From: Lytechinus variegatus | Lineage: Eukaryota > Echinodermata > Echinoidea > Temnopleuroida > Toxopneustidae | Assembly: GCF_018143015.1 (NCBI RefSeq) | Contig: NC_054740.1 | Span: 38,752,180-38,816,179, forward strand | Reading direction: 5' to 3' | DNA length: 64,000 nt | Shown here: piece by piece, positions 3,240 through 62,735 of the stretch | How positions within the stretch are numbered: the stretch's first letter is position 1 | Layout: every line of letters begins with the position of its first letter | Made by a program: the position numbers and the translations under genes | Notes under the pieces: model-generated | Seen by the model: only the letters and a program-made list of their open reading frames with translations | Told to the model about the DNA's origin: nothing | Database searches by the model: none

Positions 3240-4225
3240 CCCCGATGTAAATAGGGCATATCGACGAAAGTAATCCGTTAACAAAACGCCGAATGTCTAT
3301 CCATAATAATAGATCCATGGTAATGCACCGGGGCGAATAAACGAGTGCACAGTGGCGGGAAAATTGAATAGCTGACGGGCAGGCGATAGTGAATGTACAG
3401 GTTTATAAAGGAATGCAAGCCGTGAATACGGGGTACACCACGGCATCACCACCACCAACAACGGCGTATCACAACGCTGAGAAAAGATGCAAGGATTGCT
3501 GAATTTAAACTGCTGGAAGGTTTTTTCCCCACAAGATTGGAAAGGAGGGAAAATGCAGGAACTGATTTCAGACATTATTTTGGCGATAACCAGGTAAGTG
3601 GGATAATTATCTAACTGCTAGCAATTAAAAGAACCTTCTGAAATGGCTCACACCAACGGCTTATGTCAATATAAATTGGTGTTTGCTCAGATTACTTTAA
3701 AGTAAATGTGTTTATATTCATACAAACTTTAAGAAAGTCTCACACGATTGAAAATAGCTTTATTGAGAGGCACATTAATGTTTTGAAAAGAATTTATTAT
3801 GAAGAATATGATTACTTTCGATTGTTGTGTAATGAAAATGTGATTCCAGTTTGTCTATATTTGATGATATCCAGGGATATCGTTAAAAAAAACTGTCAAA
3901 TTTATTTTTTAAAAGTTTAAAAATCATGATGAATGTTATCTCTGTTTGCATAAGGGAATAGAACAATGGATGATATTATGTTGGTAAAATGTGAAAACCT
4001 AAAATCTCTATGGAAAATTGCAAAAACCGAGACATGACCTTTTTTCATTTTTTGTCTTAAAAATTCAGATCTAAACCAACGAACTAGATTTTTACTTGCA
4101 CAAACAGCACATTTTTTTTAAAAAGCACCAACAAGTCTCATGGATCCTGCTGAGCCGCGTCGTAGAAGTATATAAAAGTAGAAGATTATTAATGAAAATA
4201 TGGTGATGTAGGTTTAGATGGTTAC
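3240..4225. other. Non-coding stretch, nothing recognised
   Basis: No splice-bounded exon, transposase motif or strong repeat was seen. Confidence 0.35.
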
Positions 4226-4226
4226 A

Positions 4227-4692
4227 CTTCGTAATTCCGAAACACGTAAATTGCCTATACCTCGATATTCGTTAATCCGAAAACGTAAAAGGGTTCGTTA
4301 ATCCGAACATTTGAGGCGTTATTCCGAAGGTTCGATAATCCGAAAACGAAATAAGGTTCGATATTGAAGGTTCGTTAGTCCGAAAACAAAATAAGGTTCG
4401 TCGTTCTGAAGGTTCGTTAATCCGAAAACGAAATAAGGTTCGTTAGTCCGAGAACGAAATAAAGTTCGCCGTTAGACATTACATTTTCAGACTAACGAAC
4501 CTTCGAAATTACGAACCTCATTTCGTTTTCGGATTAACGAGCCTTCGGAATTACGAACCTCACTTTGTCTTCGGACTGACGAACCTTCGGAATTACGCCG
4601 AACCTCATTTTGTTTTCGGATTAACGAACCTTCGGAATTACAAACCTTTGGAAATACGAACCTTCGGATTAACGAACCTTCGGAATTACGAA
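4227..4692. repeat. TTCGTTAATCCGAA palindromic array
   Basis: About twenty short units alternate TTCG(T/A)TA(A/G)TCCGAA with GAAATAAGG or its complement. The left half reads GGTTCGTTAATCCGAAAACG and the right half is its inverse (TTTTCGGATTAACGA(A/G)CCTTCG), so the whole 466 bp can fold into a long hairpin centred near 4470. Confidence 0.9.
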
Positions 4693-6399
4693 AGCATGCG
4701 GTTTAGATAACCAAAGTACTGGTTGATTATTTGTCATTTTGATTTTTCTCAATATACAATTTACAAATTACCATGAAATGAATTTGGAAAAAAGACTTGC
4801 TATATACTTTGTTAATGTAAGACAATTACGGATGATTTTGAAAATTAAAGTAAGATATCATTTAATTTCAAAATATATTGCCAAATCTTAACAATAGAAA
4901 AGAAATAGAGAAACTGTTAGAATTCACTTGGTGATTGCTTTCAGCTACGTACATGTATGTGCTAGTGATTTGTGTATTTTATCATAAATTTGTAAATAGA
5001 ATAGAGGTTTATTGACTAAAATTATCTTTTGAACTTTTTTTCATCAAAAAGCTGAATTTTGATTCACAGAAAAATTTAAGAAATTTAAGAACATATAAAA
5101 TTTCATGATTTATTGCAGTTCTGTTTATCAAAGCACATAGATTTATTATTGATTTCATTGAAAGGATTGTCGATTTAATCAAAGTCACTTCATAAACATA
5201 ATTTTGGCCCGAAAGAGTATTTTCTCCCAAATGAATTTTGAAGAAATTTAATTTTTCTGACTCAATGGTTTAGTCCTAACACTGAATTATATAAATGTGT
5301 AGTTTCATGTTATTTGATTTTTGATGGATTATATCAACACCGTTTATATTACCAATGTCTTCAATGTCTTTTCATTATCTTGATATCATTATTATGTCAA
5401 ATCCTTTAATAATAGGGTAGTCCACTCCACAGGGTCTAAAAAAAAACGTATTTTAAAACACATCATAGACCTGTGCCTTTCAAATTTGCATCCATGGCTG
5501 TGATTTGAGATGAATGTTTTTTTAATACTTATATTTTTTAAGTGATGTTTTATTTTCTTCAAACTTACTAATAGAATTAATAGGATCTAGCAGAAAGCGA
5601 GGTACAGAAAGTCCACTAGGGACCAAGCAGCAACCAGGAAGCATCGATACATTAGGTAAAACTCATTCTTATCTCCTTCATCAATTACTGTATTAGGCAT
5701 TTTTTTAAAATAAGAAGTCGATTCTTTGAAGACGGCTTGTATCTGAACCTCGCGTTATTCGTGGGATAATTTTTGTAGGGTGTATTTTTAAATAAAGGAG
5801 ACAAAACTTGAATGTTTATGAGAAATTTATCCAATTAATAGTTAAATAACCTTTTCCTGGTAAAGGTATAGCTAATTAACAAAGTTAGGTGTATAAAACA
5901 ATGTGTAATCAATATGTTCTTACATAAACAAAAATAGACATAAACGATTGGTAAGATATCTTTTTATGCCCTTATTCATTGTCTTTAGTGTTTTGAGCAT
6001 AAAAGTGAACCAAGTTCATATTTGCACATTAATTTAAATAAGAATGGTGTTTGCAGAGGCATGGTCATATTACGTTATCACTTGGGTACGAATTGTAATG
6101 CTAATAGGGTTCATTTCTACGGGCATATTATTTTCGATGTCACTTATTTTCTATTTTTCTCTGGAAGAGGCATTGAAATTTGGTTTCCTTTTTATTGATA
6201 CATCCAGTGTTTTGTAGAACATAATATGCATGTTTGAAAAAATAGATGTTTCAAATTCACTTCATAGTTACAAACAGAAAACTTGAACTTTGCAAGCTTA
6301 TTTCATTTTAATTAATTAATCATATCAAGAGAAAATAATAAAATCTGTTTGGGGAAAATCATCTTTATAAACTCTCTAAATGAAAAATAGTTAATCTGA
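4693..6399. other. Non-coding stretch with one weak exon-like segment
   Basis: Mostly AT-rich sequence. At 5595-5656 a TAATAG acceptor-like end is followed by an open frame reading SSRKRGTESPLGTKQQPGSI and DTL before GGTAAAAC. No family was recognised, and there is no second exon that can be joined with confidence, so it is not called a gene. Confidence 0.3.
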
Positions 6400-41400: not shown

Positions 41401-44400
41401 ACTTCAGCCAATAGAAGTTGTACCTGAATCAGTATCAATTTCATAGCCAATGGAGTTGAAAACGTCAAGCCCTGGGTGTAACTAGTGTAAACACCGACTC
41501 TTTCAGCAAAAAAGTGGAATGCCTCTGGCCGTCTCACCTGCATCACGCGTTTCAATATAGCAGCAGTGCTGACTTTGAATACTACTCTAACTCGCACAAG
41601 ATGTTCAGTGATACATGGTTACTTACTCTTATGTCCACTTTTTTATGAACTAGACCAATAAACTTACAGAGATATGATGGTTATTCAACAAAAAACCCCA
41701 ACATAGCCAAAGTTCATTGACCTTACATGACCTTTGACCTTGATCATGTGACCTGAAACTCGAACAGGATGTTCAGTGATACTTGATTACTCTTATGTAC
41801 AAGTTTCATGAATCAGATCCATAAACTTTCAAAGTTATGATGTTAATTCAACAGATACACCCAATTCGGCCAAAGTTCATTGACCTTTGACCTTGGTCAT
41901 GTGACCTGAAACGCGCACAGGATGTTCAGTGATACTTGATTACTCTAATGTCCAAGTTTAATGAACTAGACCAGTAAACTTTCAAAGTTATGATGGTAAT
42001 TCAACAGATACCCCCGATTCGGCAAAAGTTCATTGACCCTAAATGACCTTTGACCTTAATCATGAGACCTGAAACTTGCACAAAATTTTCAGTGATGCTT
42101 GATAACTATTGTGTCCAAGTTTCATGAATCAGATCCATAAACTTTCAAAGTTATGATGGGAATTCAACAGATATCCCCAATTCGGCCAAAGTTCATTGAC
42201 CCTAAATGACCTTTGACCTTGGTCATGTGACGTGAAACTCATGTAGGATGTTCAGTGATACTTGATTAACCTAATGTCCAAGTTTCATGAACTAGGTCCA
42301 TATATTTTCTAAGTTATGATGACATTTCAAAAACTTAACCTCAGGTTAAGATTTCGATGTTGATTCCTCCAACATGGTCTAAGTTCATTGACCCTAAATG
42401 ACCTTTGACATTGGTCATGTGACATGAAACTCTAATAGGATGTTCAGTAATACTTGATTAACCTTATGGCCAAGTTTTATTAACTAGGTCCATATACTTT
42501 CTAAGTTATGACGTCATTTCAAAAACTTAACCTCAGGTTAAGATTTGATGTTGACGCCGCCGCCGCCGTCGGAAAAGCGGCGCCTATAGTCTCACTTTGC
42601 TTCGCAGGTGAGACAAAAACTCAACTCGAGAAACAAAAAGTTGAAAGTCAACGATTCCAAAGCTCAACTTTGTGCAGGTGACTTTGATGCCCATTCCGTT
42701 GGGACTCGGAATGTGAAAAAGGACACAGAAACCACTCATGCCAACTCCAAATCTCACTTTAAAGGGGAAGTTCACCCTGACAAAAACTTTATTGTAAAAA
42801 TAGCAGAAAAAATAATAAAAAATATTGCCGAAGGTTTGAGAAAAATTCATCAAATAATTAAAAAGTTATTAGAATTTCAATTATTTGATTTGTGACGTCA
42901 TATGCGAGCAGCATTCCTACATAGCGAATGGTAAAAAATCAATAAAATGTCATTTTCTCAGAAAATTGAATATGAAAATACTTACCTGATTTTCTTATTT
43001 ACGAGATAACTCATACATCTACTTGATTTGCTAGTTCAGCCCTCTGGACTGCCATACCCGAATAGAACTCCCAAGGATTTAAAAAGCGCGAGCGCGCCCT
43101 CTCCCGTTCAGGCTTACTACCCATGATCACCGCGCAACTAGCGTCCATCTTCCTCACCTTTCGCAAGCCCATACGTTGAAACATGTTGCTACGCAAGGCG
43201 GAGGGTCGGTGGGAGGGTATCAAGTAGATGTATGAGTTATCTCGTAAATAAGAAAATCAGGTATTTTCATAATTTACTTCAATAACTCCATACATCTACT
43301 TGATTTGCTAGACCAGCACGGACTCAAACCGTAGGGAGGCATGTTTTCAATTGTAAGCCTAAGAAAATTTAAAAGAAAAAACAAAAACAACGAAATTTAG
43401 GGAGAGGGGGAAAAAGCCGCAGCTGCTTTAAGCGCCGAAGCAGCAAATCTCGCCTCGCTGGACGGAATGTCCTTCAAGTAGAAAGAAGTGAAGGAGTTAG
43501 TTGAGCGCCAAAAGGCGGCCCTCAAAAATGTCCTCGAGAGGAATGCCCTGTATACTCAGGAATACTAAGTATCATGGGCCCTCGGCCTAGTGTCAGGAGA
43601 ACAACATCACCTGCTGACTAGAGCGTAAGAATCGAAATTTGTTGAAAATTTCAACAAGAATCGTGATCGGAAAACTGAAGCTTTTAAGGCTCAGTAAGTG
43701 ATCAATCGACCAACCTGAGAAGGCGAGATATCTCAGAACCCCTACCGAAATTTAAGCGTGCCGCTTGCTAGTAACTAGCATGCGACTAGCAGGGCACTCG
43801 CTTAAAAAGCGAGTGCGTGCTAGCGAACAGTCCCTGCTCGCTAAAAGATCGCTTAACTATTACTCTGCACGCATATCACACGCTTATTAAGCTAACCGCA
43901 TGCTAGTTACTAGCATGCCGCAAGCTTGCGCAAGCTAGTCGCACGCTTCCCGCAAGCTTGGAAATTTCTGTAGGGGAAGCCTCCGCGTGGGAGAAAACGC
44001 CCAGAATTCGATATCTGTCTCAAATGCGTGAGGGCAGAAATCTGCAGAATTCTGATAGAGAGCTGTGGTAAAAAGTTACTAGCGGTCCGAAGGGGACCAG
44101 GAACGACGGAGAGTAGGGATTTAGGAAGAAAACCACTCGTAAGGCAGACAAGGGTCGAGAAAGCGACTGAGTGCCATCCTGTTAATAAGGAATGCCGCGG
44201 ACATGTTGCCTATGTAGAATAGAGCAGTCTGGTCAAAACAGCTCAACCGGGCGTGTCAGGGATACAGCGCGGTACACATCACGACAAAAGTGTGTTAGAC
44301 CGAGTGATCGAGAGAGAACTCAGGATCCCCTTTCTCCCATACTGATTGAAGCACCCATCTGAGGGTGCAGTGCCCGCGGTGGAAGAGGTGGCTTGGCTCA

Positions 44401-47400
44401 AGCCGCCATCGCCGAGAGAGCCCGTGAGGCTAGGCTGCGATGGCTGTCCGCTGGGCGGGGGAATCCCTAGCAGCAGCAAGTGTACGCCAGAGGGAGCTGG
44501 CGAAAAAAAATCTGTCACGATATTACGTGTAAACGACCATCAAGAGATGCTCTAAACGAACAGACATCGCCAGATATGATACCTCAACCGTTACATTCCC
44601 AACGGAATCGAATGAGGTAGCAACGGCCCTGTCCTATCAAGTTAGGGACGGAAACTGGCTAAGAGTGTCGAAGTCCTCGCTTGAAGAAACAAGCGAAGGA
44701 GACTTGAGGAAGTAATCACAAAATTTCCATCAGTCTGCGGTGAGAACCAGTTGTTTATGAAAACAGTCACAAGGCCTGTTTCTCAGGTGATCGTAAGAGC
44801 GAGCACCGCCGGCGCCGGTTGCGGCAGCGTGGAACAGTCCAAAAAGCTGCGGGGGGCGGCAAAAATGACGCCCTAAGCAGCGGGGGATGAGAATCTAAAT
44901 TTCTAAAAGAAGAACTCCAGTGAAGTAAATCACTTACATGGAGAGGCTCATCCACAGTCGGCCCGAGAGAAGGCGGGTCGTAGTGATCGTGGTTAGGAAG
45001 GCATAAGCATACATCCATCCACTGTTACATCATCCTCGGTCGTGCGGTGACCCTGGCCACATGCCTTGCATGGAAGGAGGATGAAAGCAGCATGCGGGGC
45101 GACTCGAGTGTGCCGTGAAAAAATTTCTAAGAAAGAAGCCGATTCGACTAACGGGCACGGTAAAGACATCCACCGTAGACCACTCCGCACAAGGAGGGAG
45201 CGGCGGAGACGCCCGCAAGATTGACCCACATAGAGGGCAGTCTATAAGATAGACAGTTAGAGCTCGACCGATGGTCTGGCGGTGTACAGTTTGGTGTGAA
45301 CTCGCCGACCCGGTACGGTGGGTGTGCCCAGAAAGTAGGCATAGAATGCCGACAGAGAATCCTGGGGCTTTAAACAAGTTTGAACGCGCGTACATAGCCA
45401 ACAATCTCATGAGATGTACGGCGGTTACTTTCCTCCGAGATGATGTTTACCCAACCGGGAAAGACTCGGGGAACAGCTGTGAATGTCAACAGGAGGGATA
45501 TCTAGCATATGAAAAGCTGATTCCTTCCACGTATTCGGTGCGGGTGCTGCCGGCGGTGTCCGGGGGGACGACCCGTGATGGCAGCTCGGGCAGGGTTCGT
45601 ACGAGCCGCCCGAATACGAGACAAATAGGTTAACATAACCATAATGCACCGGGTGGTGAAGGCATAGCGATTATTAAGCACAGGAGAACTTTTAATCGCC
45701 GTGACATTCAGATCCGATATACATACTCATAAGCTCGGAGAGCTATGAGATAGTGAGACATACCGCTGAGCGGTGATGGTGCTCATATCAGAGTCGCCCT
45801 CTCTTCAGCGGCGATCGCTGGAGAACGGGTGTCTGTACTAGCCCTGACTCTGGCGTTGCAAGGGTAGGAGCTAAGTAAGACAGGGCACCCTTACTTTCGA
45901 ATAGAAAGTGAGGTTCAGGCCAGAAAAGCGACGGTCCCGTCGCCTGGGCGGACGGTCCGCGGACGTGATAGGTTGTCCTCTCAAAGCAGCCAAACATTCT
46001 CACGAGAGAAGTGCGGCATGCGGTATGTAAGAGATTCATACCTCCAATCTACGGGCCCGCTTAGGGGGAAGAATGGAGAGAGTTACCGCTGAAGGAGTCG
46101 TCGCCGTATGTGAGCTTGACGTAGAGGGCGAATTCGGGAGAACCTGCATAATAATCGCCCCCCCCCCCTGCCTCTGCCTTCTCGCTAGCCTCGAGAGGCT
46201 TGAAAATTTCGAGACGGCGGCGTCGGAGCCTGGCGCTTCCGGGCAGCAGCAGAGCGGGGGTGGGTTTACACCCACGGAGCTGGCGGCTTCCTCGTCGTAG
46301 GAGCCGCCTCGTCTAGAGCGACCCCGTCACTCTCTGAGACCCCCAATTCGGCCGATTGAGCTCGGAGCGCCTGAAGAGGCGGGGCGAGAAAATATGGACT
46401 CCCTTGCTTCATCAATACCCCCACTCGGAGGGTAGATGTGAGGTAGATACTTGTCAAGCAGCGCCTGAGCGCTTACTGAAAAGTCGACCGCGGGATAGGG
46501 GTTGTCCTCGTAAAGGGAGTCTCGCTCTATGGACTGAACCGGGGGGTTGTCCAGTAAGCGCCGGGGTGGCCCCGCGTGTCGGCTGGGACACGTGCTCTGA
46601 GATCGACGAAAATGCTGGAAAGCACACGCGATCTTGGGGCACCCGGTTAGTCGGTGCACTGGCTGGCGATTTAACAGAATCGCTCGAGGATTTCCCGGGT
46701 GTCTGGTGGTTATTGCCCACTTGTCTCCTTGATGCTCAGGGGCATCAGCGGGGTGAGTAGACGTCGAGGGTGGGGTGAACCCGCACTACTCGAAAGCAGA
46801 ATGTAGCAGCATGAATAGCTGTAACATCTGACCACCGACACAAGGGTCTGAAGGAGGAACGCCCATGGCAACAGGGCTGGCCGACCTCACCTTCGACCTC
46901 TTCTTCTTCGCGGCCTCCGCCGGTGTGGCCGGGGCAGAAGAAGGCACAAGAGGCACGGGTGATTTCTTACGATTTGCCGCCCCTGGCAGGGCGGCCGTCA
47001 ACAACGAAACTTCACCCGAATCTGACGGGGTCAGATTGTGGTCACAGTCTGATGTGTGACGCCTCTCGCGGTAGCATAATGTAGCAGCATGAATAGCTGT
47101 AACATCTGACCACCGACACAAGGGTCTGAAGGAGGAACGCCCATGGCAGCAGGGCTGGCCAACCTCTCCTTCGACCACTTCTTCTTCTTCTCTTTCTGCG
47201 GGCTCCGCCGGCGTGGCCGGGGCAGAAGAAGGCATGAGAGGCACGGGTGATTTCTTACGATTTGCCGCCCCTGGCAGGGCGGCCGCCGACAATGTAAATT
47301 CACCCGAATCTGACGGGGTCAGATTGTGGTCACAGCCCGATGTGTGACGCCTCTCGCGGTAGCAGAATATAGCAGCATAACATGTATGACTGTAACATCT

Positions 47401-50400
47401 GGCCACCGATAAGAGGGTCTGAAGGAGGAATGCCCATGGCAACAGGGCTGGCCGACCTCTCCTTCGACCTCTTCTTCTTCTTCTTATTTTGCGGGCTCCG
47501 CCGGCGTGGCCGGAGCAGAAGAAGGCACAAGAGGCACGGGTGATCTCTTACGATTTGCCGCCCCTGGCAGGGCGGCCGCCAACAACGAAACTTCACCCGA
47601 ATCTGACGGGGTCAGATTGTGGTCACGATCAGATTGTGGTTACAGTCTGTGTGACGCCTCTCGCGGTCAGGGGCTGGGCGATCTCTCCCGATGCTGTCAA
47701 CGGAGGACGACTTATACGGCAGAGATCCTGACCTGTGCCGGGGGGAGAGAACCGCACTCTCCCTCCGGACTTCTGGTGACCCGGTAGCCGGTGGGTCGCA
47801 TAGCCCTATGGGTGCTGCGGCGGCAGGACCTAGTTTAGGCTTGGAAGCCTTGGCTACCACTTTTTCCTTTGTCCGAGACCGTGGCACCACAGTCTCGGCC
47901 TTCCTTCTCTTAGCATCCGACCGCAAATTCGGAATGCTGATCGACGCACCCTCATACTCACCGCCGCTGGGCGCTCACCGCGGCGTCCTTCCTGCTCGCC
48001 TGGAGGCGGCCGACTTCTGTAACTTGCAATCGGGACGGTCCCCGTGGAGGGCACCAGGTCCTCTGGGGCTGTGTTAGTCCCATTCAAAGATACCTCTCTC
48101 TACCCTGAAAAAGGAAAAACAAGAATTTTTCTTTTTCTTTTTTTTTTTACAAAGATCTCGCTTAGATTAAAGGTGGAGACCGGAGTGGTCTTTCCCTCCT
48201 CCTAAAAGGAGTTTGTTTGAGCAAACAGAACAAAACAAGAGGGGAGGGGTAGGGAGGAAGAAGAAACTAAGAATAGTTTAGGTATCTGCCTGTAAGAAAA
48301 TAAAAAGGAGGTCGGAGACTTTGAAAAAAGAAACTCCTACAAGGTTCCCCTACTATATTCTCTTTTTTGTGCCCGAAGGAAAAATTCGAAACAAAAATTC
48401 AAAATTGAATGCAAGTTCAGAAGAGAACGAACTTTCCACCTGCGAAGAAACACAAAAACAAGCATTTCAGAGCAGGAAGAAAAGGGATTGAGAGACAAAT
48501 AATTCCAGATAAGAGAAATTTTACGATAATTTCCAAGAGGAAAAAAAAAAATAACCTCCTGTGGAAAGGTAAAGAAATTCAGAACAGGAGGAAGGAGGAA
48601 CGTCTCTAGTAACGATTCCAAGAGGAAGAACGACACAGTAAATCCTCAAAGGGAATCGTAGAGCCCGCCTGTCGAAATAAAAAATATATAAGACTAGGAG
48701 GGAAGAGGGAATTGAACGAAGAAAACAATTCCGGGACAGGTCAAAAAAATTTCTAACAGGAAGGAGACCCACCTGTTTTTTTTTTTTTTTTTTTTTTAGG
48801 GGGGATTGAATAACCAAACAATCATCAGGTATAATTGCGTAAGCCGAATTAAACAATCCCCGAAGCGTCTGTGAATAAAATACTAATCAAGAATTTTATT
48901 CAGAACAGAAAGGAAAAGGAATTGAGCTTTAGGATGCGCCTGTGAATAAAATATCAATCAAGAAATTTATTCAGAACAGAAGGAAAAGGAATTGAGCTTT
49001 AAGATCCGCCTGTGAATAAAATATCAATCAAGAAATTTATTCAGAACAGAAGGAAAAACGAATTGAGCTTTAAGATCCGCCTGTGAATAAAATATCAATT
49101 AAGAAATTTATTCAGAACAGAAAGGAAAGAGAATTGAAGAATTAATCAGTCGAAAATCTTAATAAATCAATTCCAGAAAGCAAGGAAGGAACAGAGTTGA
49201 AGATCCCAACCTGCAAAAAGAAATAACAATAACACCCTCGACAACAAAGTGTAGAGGCTGTCTAGAATTTAATTCAAAAACGGCACCAAAAGCCACCACG
49301 CTTTGAACGTGAAGAACAATAACCATGACAGGTGGTGAAGGCTTGCTGCCACGTAGGCAGGCCAAGCCCGGTGCCTCGCGAACGCGCAAGCGATGCGGCG
49401 CGACGAGAACTCAAACGTTAGAAAAACAATTTAAGTGTCACCAAAAACACGTCTAAAAGTCACGCCAAGTGTAAATTCTGAACACAATCTTACACACAAA
49501 TGGAAAGATTGAAATTAAAAGGGAGAATGCACCACAGATAAGCGAAAATAATATACCAAAGCTCAAAAAGATTTGAGCTCTTAGGAGACTTATCTGAGCA
49601 CGTCTTGACAGGTGGCTTGCCGAAAGCAAAAGAGGAAGATGGACGCTAGTTGCGCGGTGATCATGGGTAGTAAGCCTGAACGGGAGAGGGCGCGCTCGCG
49701 CTTTTTAAATCCTTGGGAGTTCTATTCGGGTATGGCAGTCCAGAGGGCTGAACTAGCAAATCAAGTAGATGTATGGAGTTATTGAAGTAAATAATGTTTT
49801 TTACTGTACCTTTTGTATATCAATAGACAAATCATTTCACACCCGATCATGAAAAGAAAACAAAATTAAGTCATCAGGAACCATGCAAAATTTGAAATTC
49901 ATGCATTTTATATTACATAACACATGGGGCAGCTGCTCGTTTATGACGTCACAAATCCAAAACTTTGAACTCTAATAACTTTCTTACTCTTTAACGGATT
50001 TTCCTCAAACCTTCACCAATATTTTTACTATTTTTTCTGCTATTTTTGCAACAAAGTTTTCTTCAGGGTGAACTTCCCGTTTAAGGGCTATTCAGTCCGC
50101 TTCTGAGCCACAACTTGCGGTCCAGCTTCACACACTCGATGACCAAAAGCATTGGAAAATGTGTAAACTCTTTGACACTGCCTACACCATTGCCTTTATT
50201 GAGCAGCCATTCACTTTTTTTAACCACTCTGGTTGCGATACAGAAGAAGCATGGTACAGACCTAGGCAACAAATACATCAAAGACAAAGCATGTAAAACC
50301 TTCACCACTCAAATTGTCAGTTCATTAGAGGAGGAAAGGCAGAAGTGGTGTTACAATCACAAGCGATTATATTTCTGCATCTTCTCTGACAGGAGTACCG

Positions 50401-53400
50401 GCTGTAAATGAAGAGGAGGTCAGTGTCAAGTTCCTGGATTATGGTGTTCCGAAGACCAGACTTTGGGGGTAATACTATTAGTACTTTTAAAACTATTTTC
50501 AATACTTTTAATCATTTAAATTTCAAGCTTGTAGTTTTTTTTTCCATACTCCCTTTTTTACGGAGAGGGAAGAAGGAAAACCTAGAAAGATATTGTGGAG
50601 AGCCTCGAAAAGTAAAAAGTAACAACATATTACATGCCATTCTCAAGATGCACTCAAAATTTATAACAACAAACGTGTTATGATTTTGCAATTCATTAAC
50701 ACAGAATTGCAGAGCCATCTACTTGTGTTGCCGAAGGAGTCCACCACGCCATCGACGAGCTCTGTACACAACACAACTAATACCAATACGAGACAGGCTA
50801 GAAATAACATATTAAATGCCATTCTGAAGACCAATCAAAACTTATAACACAAGAATTATAATTTCTCCTTTTATCAATCGCAGAGCCATCCTCTTGTGAT
50901 GCCAGAGGAGTCCACCAAGCCATTGACCAGCTCTGTACACAACACAACTAATAACAATACGAGACAGGCTAGTAATAACATATTACATGCCATTCTGAAG
51001 ACCTATCAAAACTTATAACACAAGAATTATTATTTCTCCTTTCTTATATTGGAGAGCCATCCTCTTGCGATGCCAGAGGAGTCCACCAAGCCATTGACCA
51101 GCTCTGTACACAACACAACTAATACCAATACGAGACAGGCTAGTAATAACATATTACATGCCATTCTGAAGACCTATCAAAACTTATAACACAAGAATTA
51201 TTATTTCTCCTTTCTTATATTGGAGAGCCATCCTCTTGCGATGCCAGAGGAGTCCACCAAGCCATTGACCAGCTCTGTACACAACACAACTAATACCAAT
51301 ACGAGACAGGCTAGTAATAACATATTACATGCCATTCTAAAGATCAATCAAAACTGATTATAAGAACACAAGAAGTATAATTTCTCTTTTATCAATACAG
51401 AACTGATTAGCCATCCTCATTTTGTGATTGTGAAGGAGTCCACCAAGCCATCGGACAGCACTGTACACAACACAACTTGCCAATATGAGACGGGCTAGTT
51501 GCTGCAGCAGCAGACAGAGCAGCTGTCAATTTTGGGAGAATAAGAAGTGCAATGTACTTCACATCAGCTTGAGGTGTCACTCAAGGATGCATTCAAGGAA
51601 ACATATTTTTACAAAGGTTTGTATAACAATATGGTTCCATTTGCTTTTTTAAATCACTTGATAATTTCACTTCAGTTTGGTTTATTTTCATATGTCACAA
51701 AATATAATTCATGTGTACCTTGTAACATTCAACAATAAAGAACAAAACCTTCATAACAAATAAGTACATTAAAAAAATCAATAAAATATGGCAATGGTTG
51801 AGACTGGAAACATATAAAAACATGAGAATATAAAGGAAAAATTATTCAAAAATAGAGCTTGTACTTTAGGTTCTCTAAGAACAACTCATAAGTTATTGTC
51901 CATTTGTTATAATAATAATGTTAATATAAAAAATAAAACCAAAGAGAAATATACTTGAGGGGGGAAAGAAGGAAAAAAGGGGGGCCAGGGTGAAACACTA
52001 CATAGCCATAAAGTATAATACATAAATTTTCTAAATTTTTGGGTTGCAACGAGACAGGCATCTAGTGTTGTTATCTAGAAAAAAAATCCCGGTCCGAAAC
52101 CGTCCCGGCAACTTCAAAATTTCCTTATCGGGATCCCGGCTCGTCCCGAATCCCGAAACATATCTCCACGCACAAATGCAATCCAAAAGTGTATACCTAC
52201 ATTTCCAGCCTTAAACACTGCGCACTGGCGGTGCACCAGACAGTCAAAGCATAGAACTATTAACTGTTAGCTCCATGGTCAAAGTGTGCATGCCACCACC
52301 GCAAATTGTAAACATTCACTCAAAACGTGGGGAAAATAATGATGAGACAGTCAAAGCGTGCCACCACCGCAAACTGTAAACATTAATGACCACTGACATG
52401 ACCCGAATTATGTTTGAGTTGACCCAGCTGCTGATCTGACAGTCCAATAACACACGTGTCGGTGCCACTGATCTGTGGTCGGTGCGCACGTGGTTGACAG
52501 TTATAAGCAAATTGCGTAATGTCTTGTCAGTGCGCCTGTGGCCCTAGCTAGCCCAGAATATGGATTTACTTTCAGTTTCACTCTCTCTCCCTCTCTCGTA
52601 ACTCTGAACAGTATGATATCACCAAGGAGATATCTCCTTCATATCACTACTACTGAGAAAAGTGAATACTATCTTATCAGAGAAGCTTATTTGGAAATTT
52701 ACACAAGATTACTCCCGGCGGCCGGCACTTCGCATCAAAACAACAAACTCATTTTTTCTTTAATCATGAATTACTTTCGATCGAGAAAACATTTGAATAG
52801 ATACTCAGACTATTCACAGTAAAAAAATATTTTGAACAACTATTTAAATATTAAGAAACATTGTTTAAGCCAGTCAATATACAACTATTTTTTAAACTAT
52901 TAAACCAATAGAATTTTTTTAAACTTTAAACAGTTTGTTTTTAAATATTTTTTGCAATTTCCAACGATATCATTTAAAACTGTTAATATCATTGGAAATT
53001 TGTTTGATGCATTTAACAACATATTTTTACAACATATAGGGTATGATATGACTTTCAAAACAATGTTGTTTCAAAGTTTAAACAACGCCACTTTAAACAT
53101 CCCCAATTCTAACAGCGTTTTGGTACAATTTTACAATTTAAGTCGAAATATATCTAGGAGAAATGATTTGACCATAGAGCTATTAACAGCTCCATGATTT
53201 GATCGACTGGTTTGCAATTGTAAACATCAAGTCAACAGATGACAGATGGTCCCCAGTCGTGAACGACCAAGCACTTCCCGTAATCCCCCCTTCTCTCTCT
53301 CTCTCTCTCTCTCCCGGCACTAACCAGCTGAAACATGATGCGCATTCGTCTAGTTGTTATTTGCAAACCCTTTCACAAAAAAATACCCCAACAAATACAA

Positions 53401-62354: not shown

Positions 62355-62735
62355 CCAGGATATCATCATCATCATCACCATCACCACTATCATGATCATC
62401 ATCCATCATGATGATCATCATGATCATCATCATGATCATGATCATCATCCATCATTATCATCATGATCATGATCATCATTATCACCATCATTATCACTAT
62501 CAGCTGTATCATCCACCACCACCACTATCATTATCATCATCATCATCACCACCACCACCATCATCGTCATCATCATCATCATAATCATTATTTGTATTCT
62601 AATAGTAATTATAATATAAAAAATGATAATACTTATGTTTTTAGTATAAGTATTGGAATTATTACTGTTATTACTATCATCATCATCTTCATCATCGCCG
62701 TCATCATCGTCAGCATCATCATCATAAATATTATT
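62355..62735. repeat. ATC/ATT microsatellite
   Basis: Mostly ATC triplets with ATT, ACC and ATG variants. The long Ile/His open frame on the plus strand here is an artefact of the repeat. Confidence 0.95.

Follow-up and report, generated by a model that had tools for sequence, protein, structure and literature searches.

The window examined here is a stretch of 64,000 nucleotides (nt) from Lytechinus variegatus (contig NC_054740.1). It carries, at 42971-49792, an element of 6822 nt whose sense strand is the minus strand of the window and which very probably belongs, as a full-length, non-autonomous copy, to a DIRS1-like tyrosine recombinase (YR) retrotransposon family served by proteins of gene-bearing relatives in the same genome. 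The element has the terminal and internal repeat architecture of this class, exists in many young copies with shared dead reading frames, has inserted exactly and without duplication, and has a gene-bearing relative with the same internal complementary region (ICR) and 5′ terminus. The initial annotation, made from the sequence alone, had proposed a DIRS-type element between the same coordinates; this was borne out by the geometry of the ends and the ICR, by the existence of copies with the same ends, and by an ICR-sharing relative with reverse transcriptase (RT) and YR.

The boundaries of the element are exact and rest on 30 left junctions and 20 full copies. TATGAAAATACTTACC starts at the base equivalent to 42971 in 30/30 fetched left junctions, and GTAAAT closes 20/20 parsed copies at the base equivalent to 49792; locus L050, a nested insertion, was handled apart from these 20. 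On the sense strand, to which all features of the element given below belong unless otherwise stated, the element starts with ATTTACTTC (5′ terminus, 49776-49792, found in 20/20 parsed copies) and finishes with TATTTTCATA followed by the target trinucleotide, and its two outer ends are unequal. The inverted terminal repeats (ITRs), at 49632-49775 (5′) and 43012-43155 (3′), are 144 nt long and 100% complementary to each other, in agreement with the repeats of about 150 bp originally described. The 3′ terminus (42971-43011) consists of a right extension and the divergent part of the 3′ ITR, and complements the ICR at 43219-43271 except for a 4-nt gap.

The ICR itself spans 43219-43311, with 43219-43271 complementing the 3′ end and 43272-43311 the 5′ end. 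Its circular junction is the ATT (AAT on the minus strand) at 43272-43274, and the sense ICR reads ..GTAAAT TATGAAAATAC.. across it. Positions 43219-43263 are the reverse complement of 42983-43027 (45 nt, 100%), and the other side, 43268-43317 against 49747-49796, is 94% complementary along 50 nt, 40 of which form an exact core. These longest words common to the ICR and the ends (45 and 40 nt) compare with at most 13 and 10 nt in 200 shuffles. The right extension, ..AAGAAAATCAGGTAAGTATTTTCATA, occurs only at the 3′ end and in the ICR, and an ICR with both ends fused at the junction was present in 30/30 loci read. The proposal that the outer ends differ and that the ICR fuses the reverse complements of both was thus confirmed, with one amendment to the claim that it does so exactly: both ends are matched, but the ICR of the window copy lacks four bases (TTAC) that the matching 3′ end has. 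Split direct repeats of the PAT-like or Ngaro type were not found in the element; inverted repeats and an ICR were found instead.

Copies with the same ends, which the initial annotation had suggested looking for, are abundant in the genome. The ICR junction pattern gave 437 genome matches with up to 2 mismatches (1 for the reversed control), and a 35-nt word from the 5′ end, which fits ICRs as well, gave 663 with up to 1 mismatch (control, 0). With a 347-nt query from the 3′ end, 40/40 scored candidates were at least 99% identical (40 scored of 902). The left flanks were distinct at 28 of 30 loci. Twenty full copies, 19 fetched plus that of the window, range from 5915 to 6971 nt in length and are on average 99.44% identical in pairwise comparison (range, 99.18 to 99.85%), a value biased towards young copies because they were taken from the best matches to the single 347-nt query. 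One further locus (L063) carries a variant with the interior deleted from mid-element to near the ICR.

The nested insertion at L050 (923-8040), in which one copy of the family lies inside another copy of the same family, provided an exact empty site. Joining the flanks restored the resident sequence at 80/80 columns, with nothing duplicated or lost at this one site. Target-site duplications, which had been named as an observation that would argue for a DNA transposon, were not found at the L050 empty site or in the left flanks of 28 loci, which were also examined. The last three bases of these 28 left flanks were AAT (11), AAA (6), GAT (3), GAA (3), AGT (2), CAT (1), AAG (1), and GGT (1), a target core that exceeds the 99.9% null at all three positions. 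The right end was AAT in 20/20 parsed copies; the parsing script searched for the exact AAT-ending end and found it in each of them. YR integration predicts such a pattern, in which one side carries a core derived from the target and the other that of the element.

We then consider what the element encodes. No stop-to-stop frame longer than 253 amino acids (aa) occurs in the 20 copies, Pfam searches of the open reading frames of the window and of the three sense frames returned nothing above chance, and no known RNA family was found in the window at gathering scores. Gag, RT-RNase H-methylase, and YR are therefore not encoded by the element itself, which makes it non-autonomous. A broken gag remnant is nonetheless recognizable at 46194-48099 by tblastn with the open 650-aa Gag frame of the relative (E down to 6e-76), as the gag-like region of the initial annotation implied. 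The expanded tandem segment noted there also proved real: Tandem Repeats Finder (TRF) reports a period of 293 with 2.9 copies at 46795-47626, corresponding to a gag unit of about 290 nt that is present three times here and is single in the relative. A remnant of the C-terminal region of the YR, also broken, lies at 43400-43666 (tblastn with the YR tail of the relative, 57% identity, E 1.6e-16), in surrounding DNA that is 93% identical. The suggested tblastn of the minus-strand region thus found both Gag and the YR tail of the relative, and the protein-level remains in the window amount to Gag residues 1-372, 462-500, and 584-621 plus the YR end.

The middle of the element gave no match by standard blastn, tblastx, or Pfam, and from the blank blastn and tblastx results the whole of 43667-46194 was suspected to be foreign filler. 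This was revised after permissive blastn, which yielded two weak collinear sense matches, one of which recurred with query and target exchanged, and after Smith-Waterman alignment. The latter scored 481, against a mean of 197 and a maximum of 268 in 100 shuffles, with 51.5% identity over 1605 columns. Because this collinear alignment stands far above the shuffles, we interpret 43945-45258 as a strongly decayed pol-derived stretch, collinear with the RT-to-methylase region of the relative, although no protein-level match was found for it. The interior at 45259-46193 (no strand assigned) showed no similarity to the read part of the relative by blastn, tblastx, permissive blastn, or Smith-Waterman. 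A 71-nt tandem array in the 5′ leader (48869-49137), detected by TRF and as gapped columns in the copy alignment, varies in length among copies. Compared with the relative, the gag-derived blocks are 80 to 93% identical and the 3′ tail 93%, and the element combines well-preserved parts with badly decayed ones in a mosaic. The idea that the coding part was reduced to gag is correct in that a gag region is present, but a YR tail also remains, as does a decayed stretch of pol; a gag-only family is not what was found, since Gag is not encoded and its frame is cut by shared stops.

These stops bear on how the family arose. Of the four that bound the gag pieces, three occur in 20/20 copies and the fourth in 19/20, with a gap in the remaining one, and variants inside the open reading frames are spread over all codon positions. 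It could be supposed that the copies are debris of a once autonomous DIRS family whose intact elements decayed in place, with no mobilization in trans, and remnants of gag, pol, and YR do follow one another in the expected order. However, the same stops recur in copies that sit at different loci and are 99.4% alike, so the dead state preceded the spread; decay in place is ruled out by these common stops, and we consider it very improbable.

To characterize possible sources of protein, we sampled 20 ICR loci outside the match list of the 3′-end query, reading about 0.8 kb of each. The same dead interior was present in 17/20 (including L063), and the other three (L053, L062, and L066) represented the relative, with a sequence that parts from the dead interior about 280 nt ahead of the ICR and continues as a YR tail frame containing an HxxR motif. 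This frame is open in L062 and L066; in L053 part of it has been lost and an early stop ends it. In L053 and L066, as in the window, the exact 35-nt 5′ terminus is found 6.5 kb from the ICR. L071, a 4.3-kb region beside L066, contains the open 650-aa frame at the Gag position and a frame of 443 aa with an RVT_1 match (3.5e-22; 79.6 bits, cut-off 29.6) and a YLDD motif, whose nearest solved-structure relatives include the Ty3 RT. Signals of gag, RT, and YR, with a weak Dam-like match, were thus found in the one relative that was read further, as the initial annotation had suggested looking for; RNase H gave no Pfam match there. Dead copies alongside a gene-bearing relative that shares their ICR support well, as the best inference, the mobilization in trans that had been proposed from the start.

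The YR tail of the relative is 58 to 60% identical to six genomic loci that pass the Pfam cut-off (150 of 900 candidates scored). In the same set, at least 24 full-length, stop-free YR tails were at least 94% identical to it, 17 of them in frames of at least 525 aa. The other seven, at 94 to 97% identity, lie in frames of 219 to 251 aa (e.g., C6:14852875-14853510) and are perhaps a second non-autonomous group keeping the YR tail. Further DIRS-like YR loci, 57 to 61% identical to the relative (e.g., C1:28944398-28945003) and several with frames open to about 979 aa, are, going by their sequence, other DIRS families in the same genome.

Variation among copies was informative about the way the ends are made. 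One ITR variant occurs in 5 copies, each time on both ITRs, and is absent from both in the other 15. The ITR pairs, compared over 144 nt, are identical in 14/20 copies, five differ by 1 to 3 positions, and L035 was left out. Paired variants of this kind are consistent with a single template giving rise to both ITRs in each cycle. They also bear on a Crypton-like YR DNA transposon, moving as DNA without an RNA step, which would share YR-type insertion without duplication. Such an element appears very unlikely here: the relatives with the same ICR carry an RT, the appearance of ITR variants on both ITRs of a copy is expected if both are remade each cycle, and the combination of ICR and ITRs is the published DIRS1 signature in the sections of PMC3266345 used here. 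A DNA transposon with long terminal inverted repeats and a DDE transposase, the internal repeat being incidental, would explain the long perfect repeats and the non-coding interior but is the least credible alternative, ruled out in substance by the duplication-free empty site and by the RT and YR of relatives that share the ICR, as well as by the fusion of both ends at the ICR junction in 30/30 loci.

The 4-nt mismatch between the ICR and the 3′ end showed a different pattern. The 4-nt deletion was initially suggested to be confined to ICRs (7/30 ICRs, 0/30 ends), a view that was dropped after it was found in ends at 8 genome-wide places. The shortened word occurs at 28 places in the genome, 15 in ICRs, 8 in ends, and 5 in neither, as assigned by orientation relative to other genome matches, and two elements have it in both ICR and end. 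As the shortened word occurs in one without the other, the ICR and the 3′ end do not serve as templates for one another in every case; the 4-nt mismatches may equally well reflect recurrent slippage between TAC repeats. Copies with the deletion in the ICR form no tight cluster over the whole element. The deletion removes either CAGGTAAGT or its reverse complement. This motif, found once on the sense strand of the element, lies in the 3′ extension (42977-42999, minus strand) and perfectly matches what we take to be the 5′ splice-donor consensus.

We favor a non-autonomous DIRS1-like family that would move as follows. Its RNA, corresponding to the minus strand of the window, would be copied and circularized by proteins from gene-bearing relatives. 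The ICR would bring both ends of the DNA copy next to each other, giving a circle with an AAT junction (GTAAAT-TATGAAAA), which the YR of a relative would then insert at a degenerate R-A-W trinucleotide.

Several observations weigh against this reading. The RNA and circle intermediates, like the supply of protein by the relative, are steps that we infer. TTAC is missing from the ICR and kept in the 3′ end in 7/20 full copies, including that of the window, and a simple deletion derivative would not be expected to combine pol decayed to about 52% with gag at 80 to 93%. Some 5.1 kb of the relative (L071 plus L066) was read, a span that excludes the 5′ leader and the 3′ outer end, and the exact 5′ terminus of L062 was not among the matches listed. 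Three of its domain matches fall under their curated cut-offs: Dam in a frame overlapping the 443-aa frame of L071 (0.0012; 19 bits, cut-off 28.1), and, in the YR frame, Phage_integrase (9.4e-4; 19.4 bits, cut-off 27.1) and a SAM-like match (0.026). RNase H had no Pfam match in the relative up to E 0.1, and its YR tail had no solved-structure relative up to E 1.

The uneven decay allows a more specific and tentative proposal, towards which we do not lean, that this is a long-lived parasitic DIRS lineage, with dead genes and pol at about 52% identity to the relative, whereas the gag-derived, YR-tail, and end segments resemble it at 80 to 93% (ends near 100%). If true, DIRS reverse transcription would freely accept foreign templates and repeatedly switch between co-packaged RNAs, refreshing what the element needs in cis. 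In that case, the independent 4-nt mismatches of ICR and 3′ end would imply that the ICR does not serve in every cycle as the template for the 3′ extension.

Around the element, inverted arms at 42759-42912 and 49932-50084, 79 to 90% complementary, lie on either side of the DIRS copy, suggesting that it inserted into another inverted-repeat element. Tandem arrays are found nearby at 41589-42554, 50705-51499, and 62362-62725, with units of 163 to 192 nt, 171 nt, and ATC, respectively.

The family adds a member to the already known DIRS1-type elements. According to the portions of Piednoel et al. 2011 (PMC3266345) consulted, DIRS1-like elements have ITRs, unequal ends with a right extension, an ICR at the 3′ side, and duplication-free integration, and ATT/ATT ends with an AAT junction form the commonest class in its Table 3. 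The window element resembles them in its ITRs, right extension, 3′-side ICR, AAT junction, and lack of target duplication, and its 144-nt ITR falls within their range of 66 to 316; the order of gag, RT, and YR in the relative, with a weak Dam-like match between RT and YR, is likewise theirs. Unlike them, the element of the window is left with no intact gene, its gag includes a tripled unit, and its 3′ end has 4 nt that are absent from the ICR; its 6822 nt compare with 3974 to 6283 for the 28 DIRS1-like elements described there. Ngaro and PAT-like YR retrotransposons likewise encode YR and RT together, but the PAT-like ones have split direct repeats instead of ITRs and an ICR (relevant parts of PMC3266345 and PMC9210276), and Ngaro and VIPER are described as being without a methylase domain (PMC3266345, same parts).

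Other transposon classes have well-known non-autonomous companions. Within the literature searched (open-licence PMC text, Repbase being outside its scope), a non-autonomous DIRS was not named. A comparable case is SIRE of Trypanosoma cruzi, a short non-autonomous relative that accompanies the YR retrotransposon VIPER and has retained the two ends of this autonomous partner, yet it measures a few hundred bases and has VIPER-type repeats instead of ITRs and an ICR; its mobility is treated as an open question in the excerpts of PMC6681497 available to us. TRE5-A.2 of Dictyostelium, a variant without enzyme genes mobilized in trans by a relative, is a non-LTR element, and the likeness is limited to the logic of supply in trans (PMC5633606, in the part drawn on).

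If our interpretation is correct, the family shows DIRS proteins acting in trans and documents an empty DIRS integration site exactly. The mismatches between ICR and ends and the paired ITR variants would then be natural markers of whether parts of a new copy originate from the RNA, the other ITR, or the ICR, and these mismatches could, with the mosaic divergence, be of use in testing the DIRS circle model.

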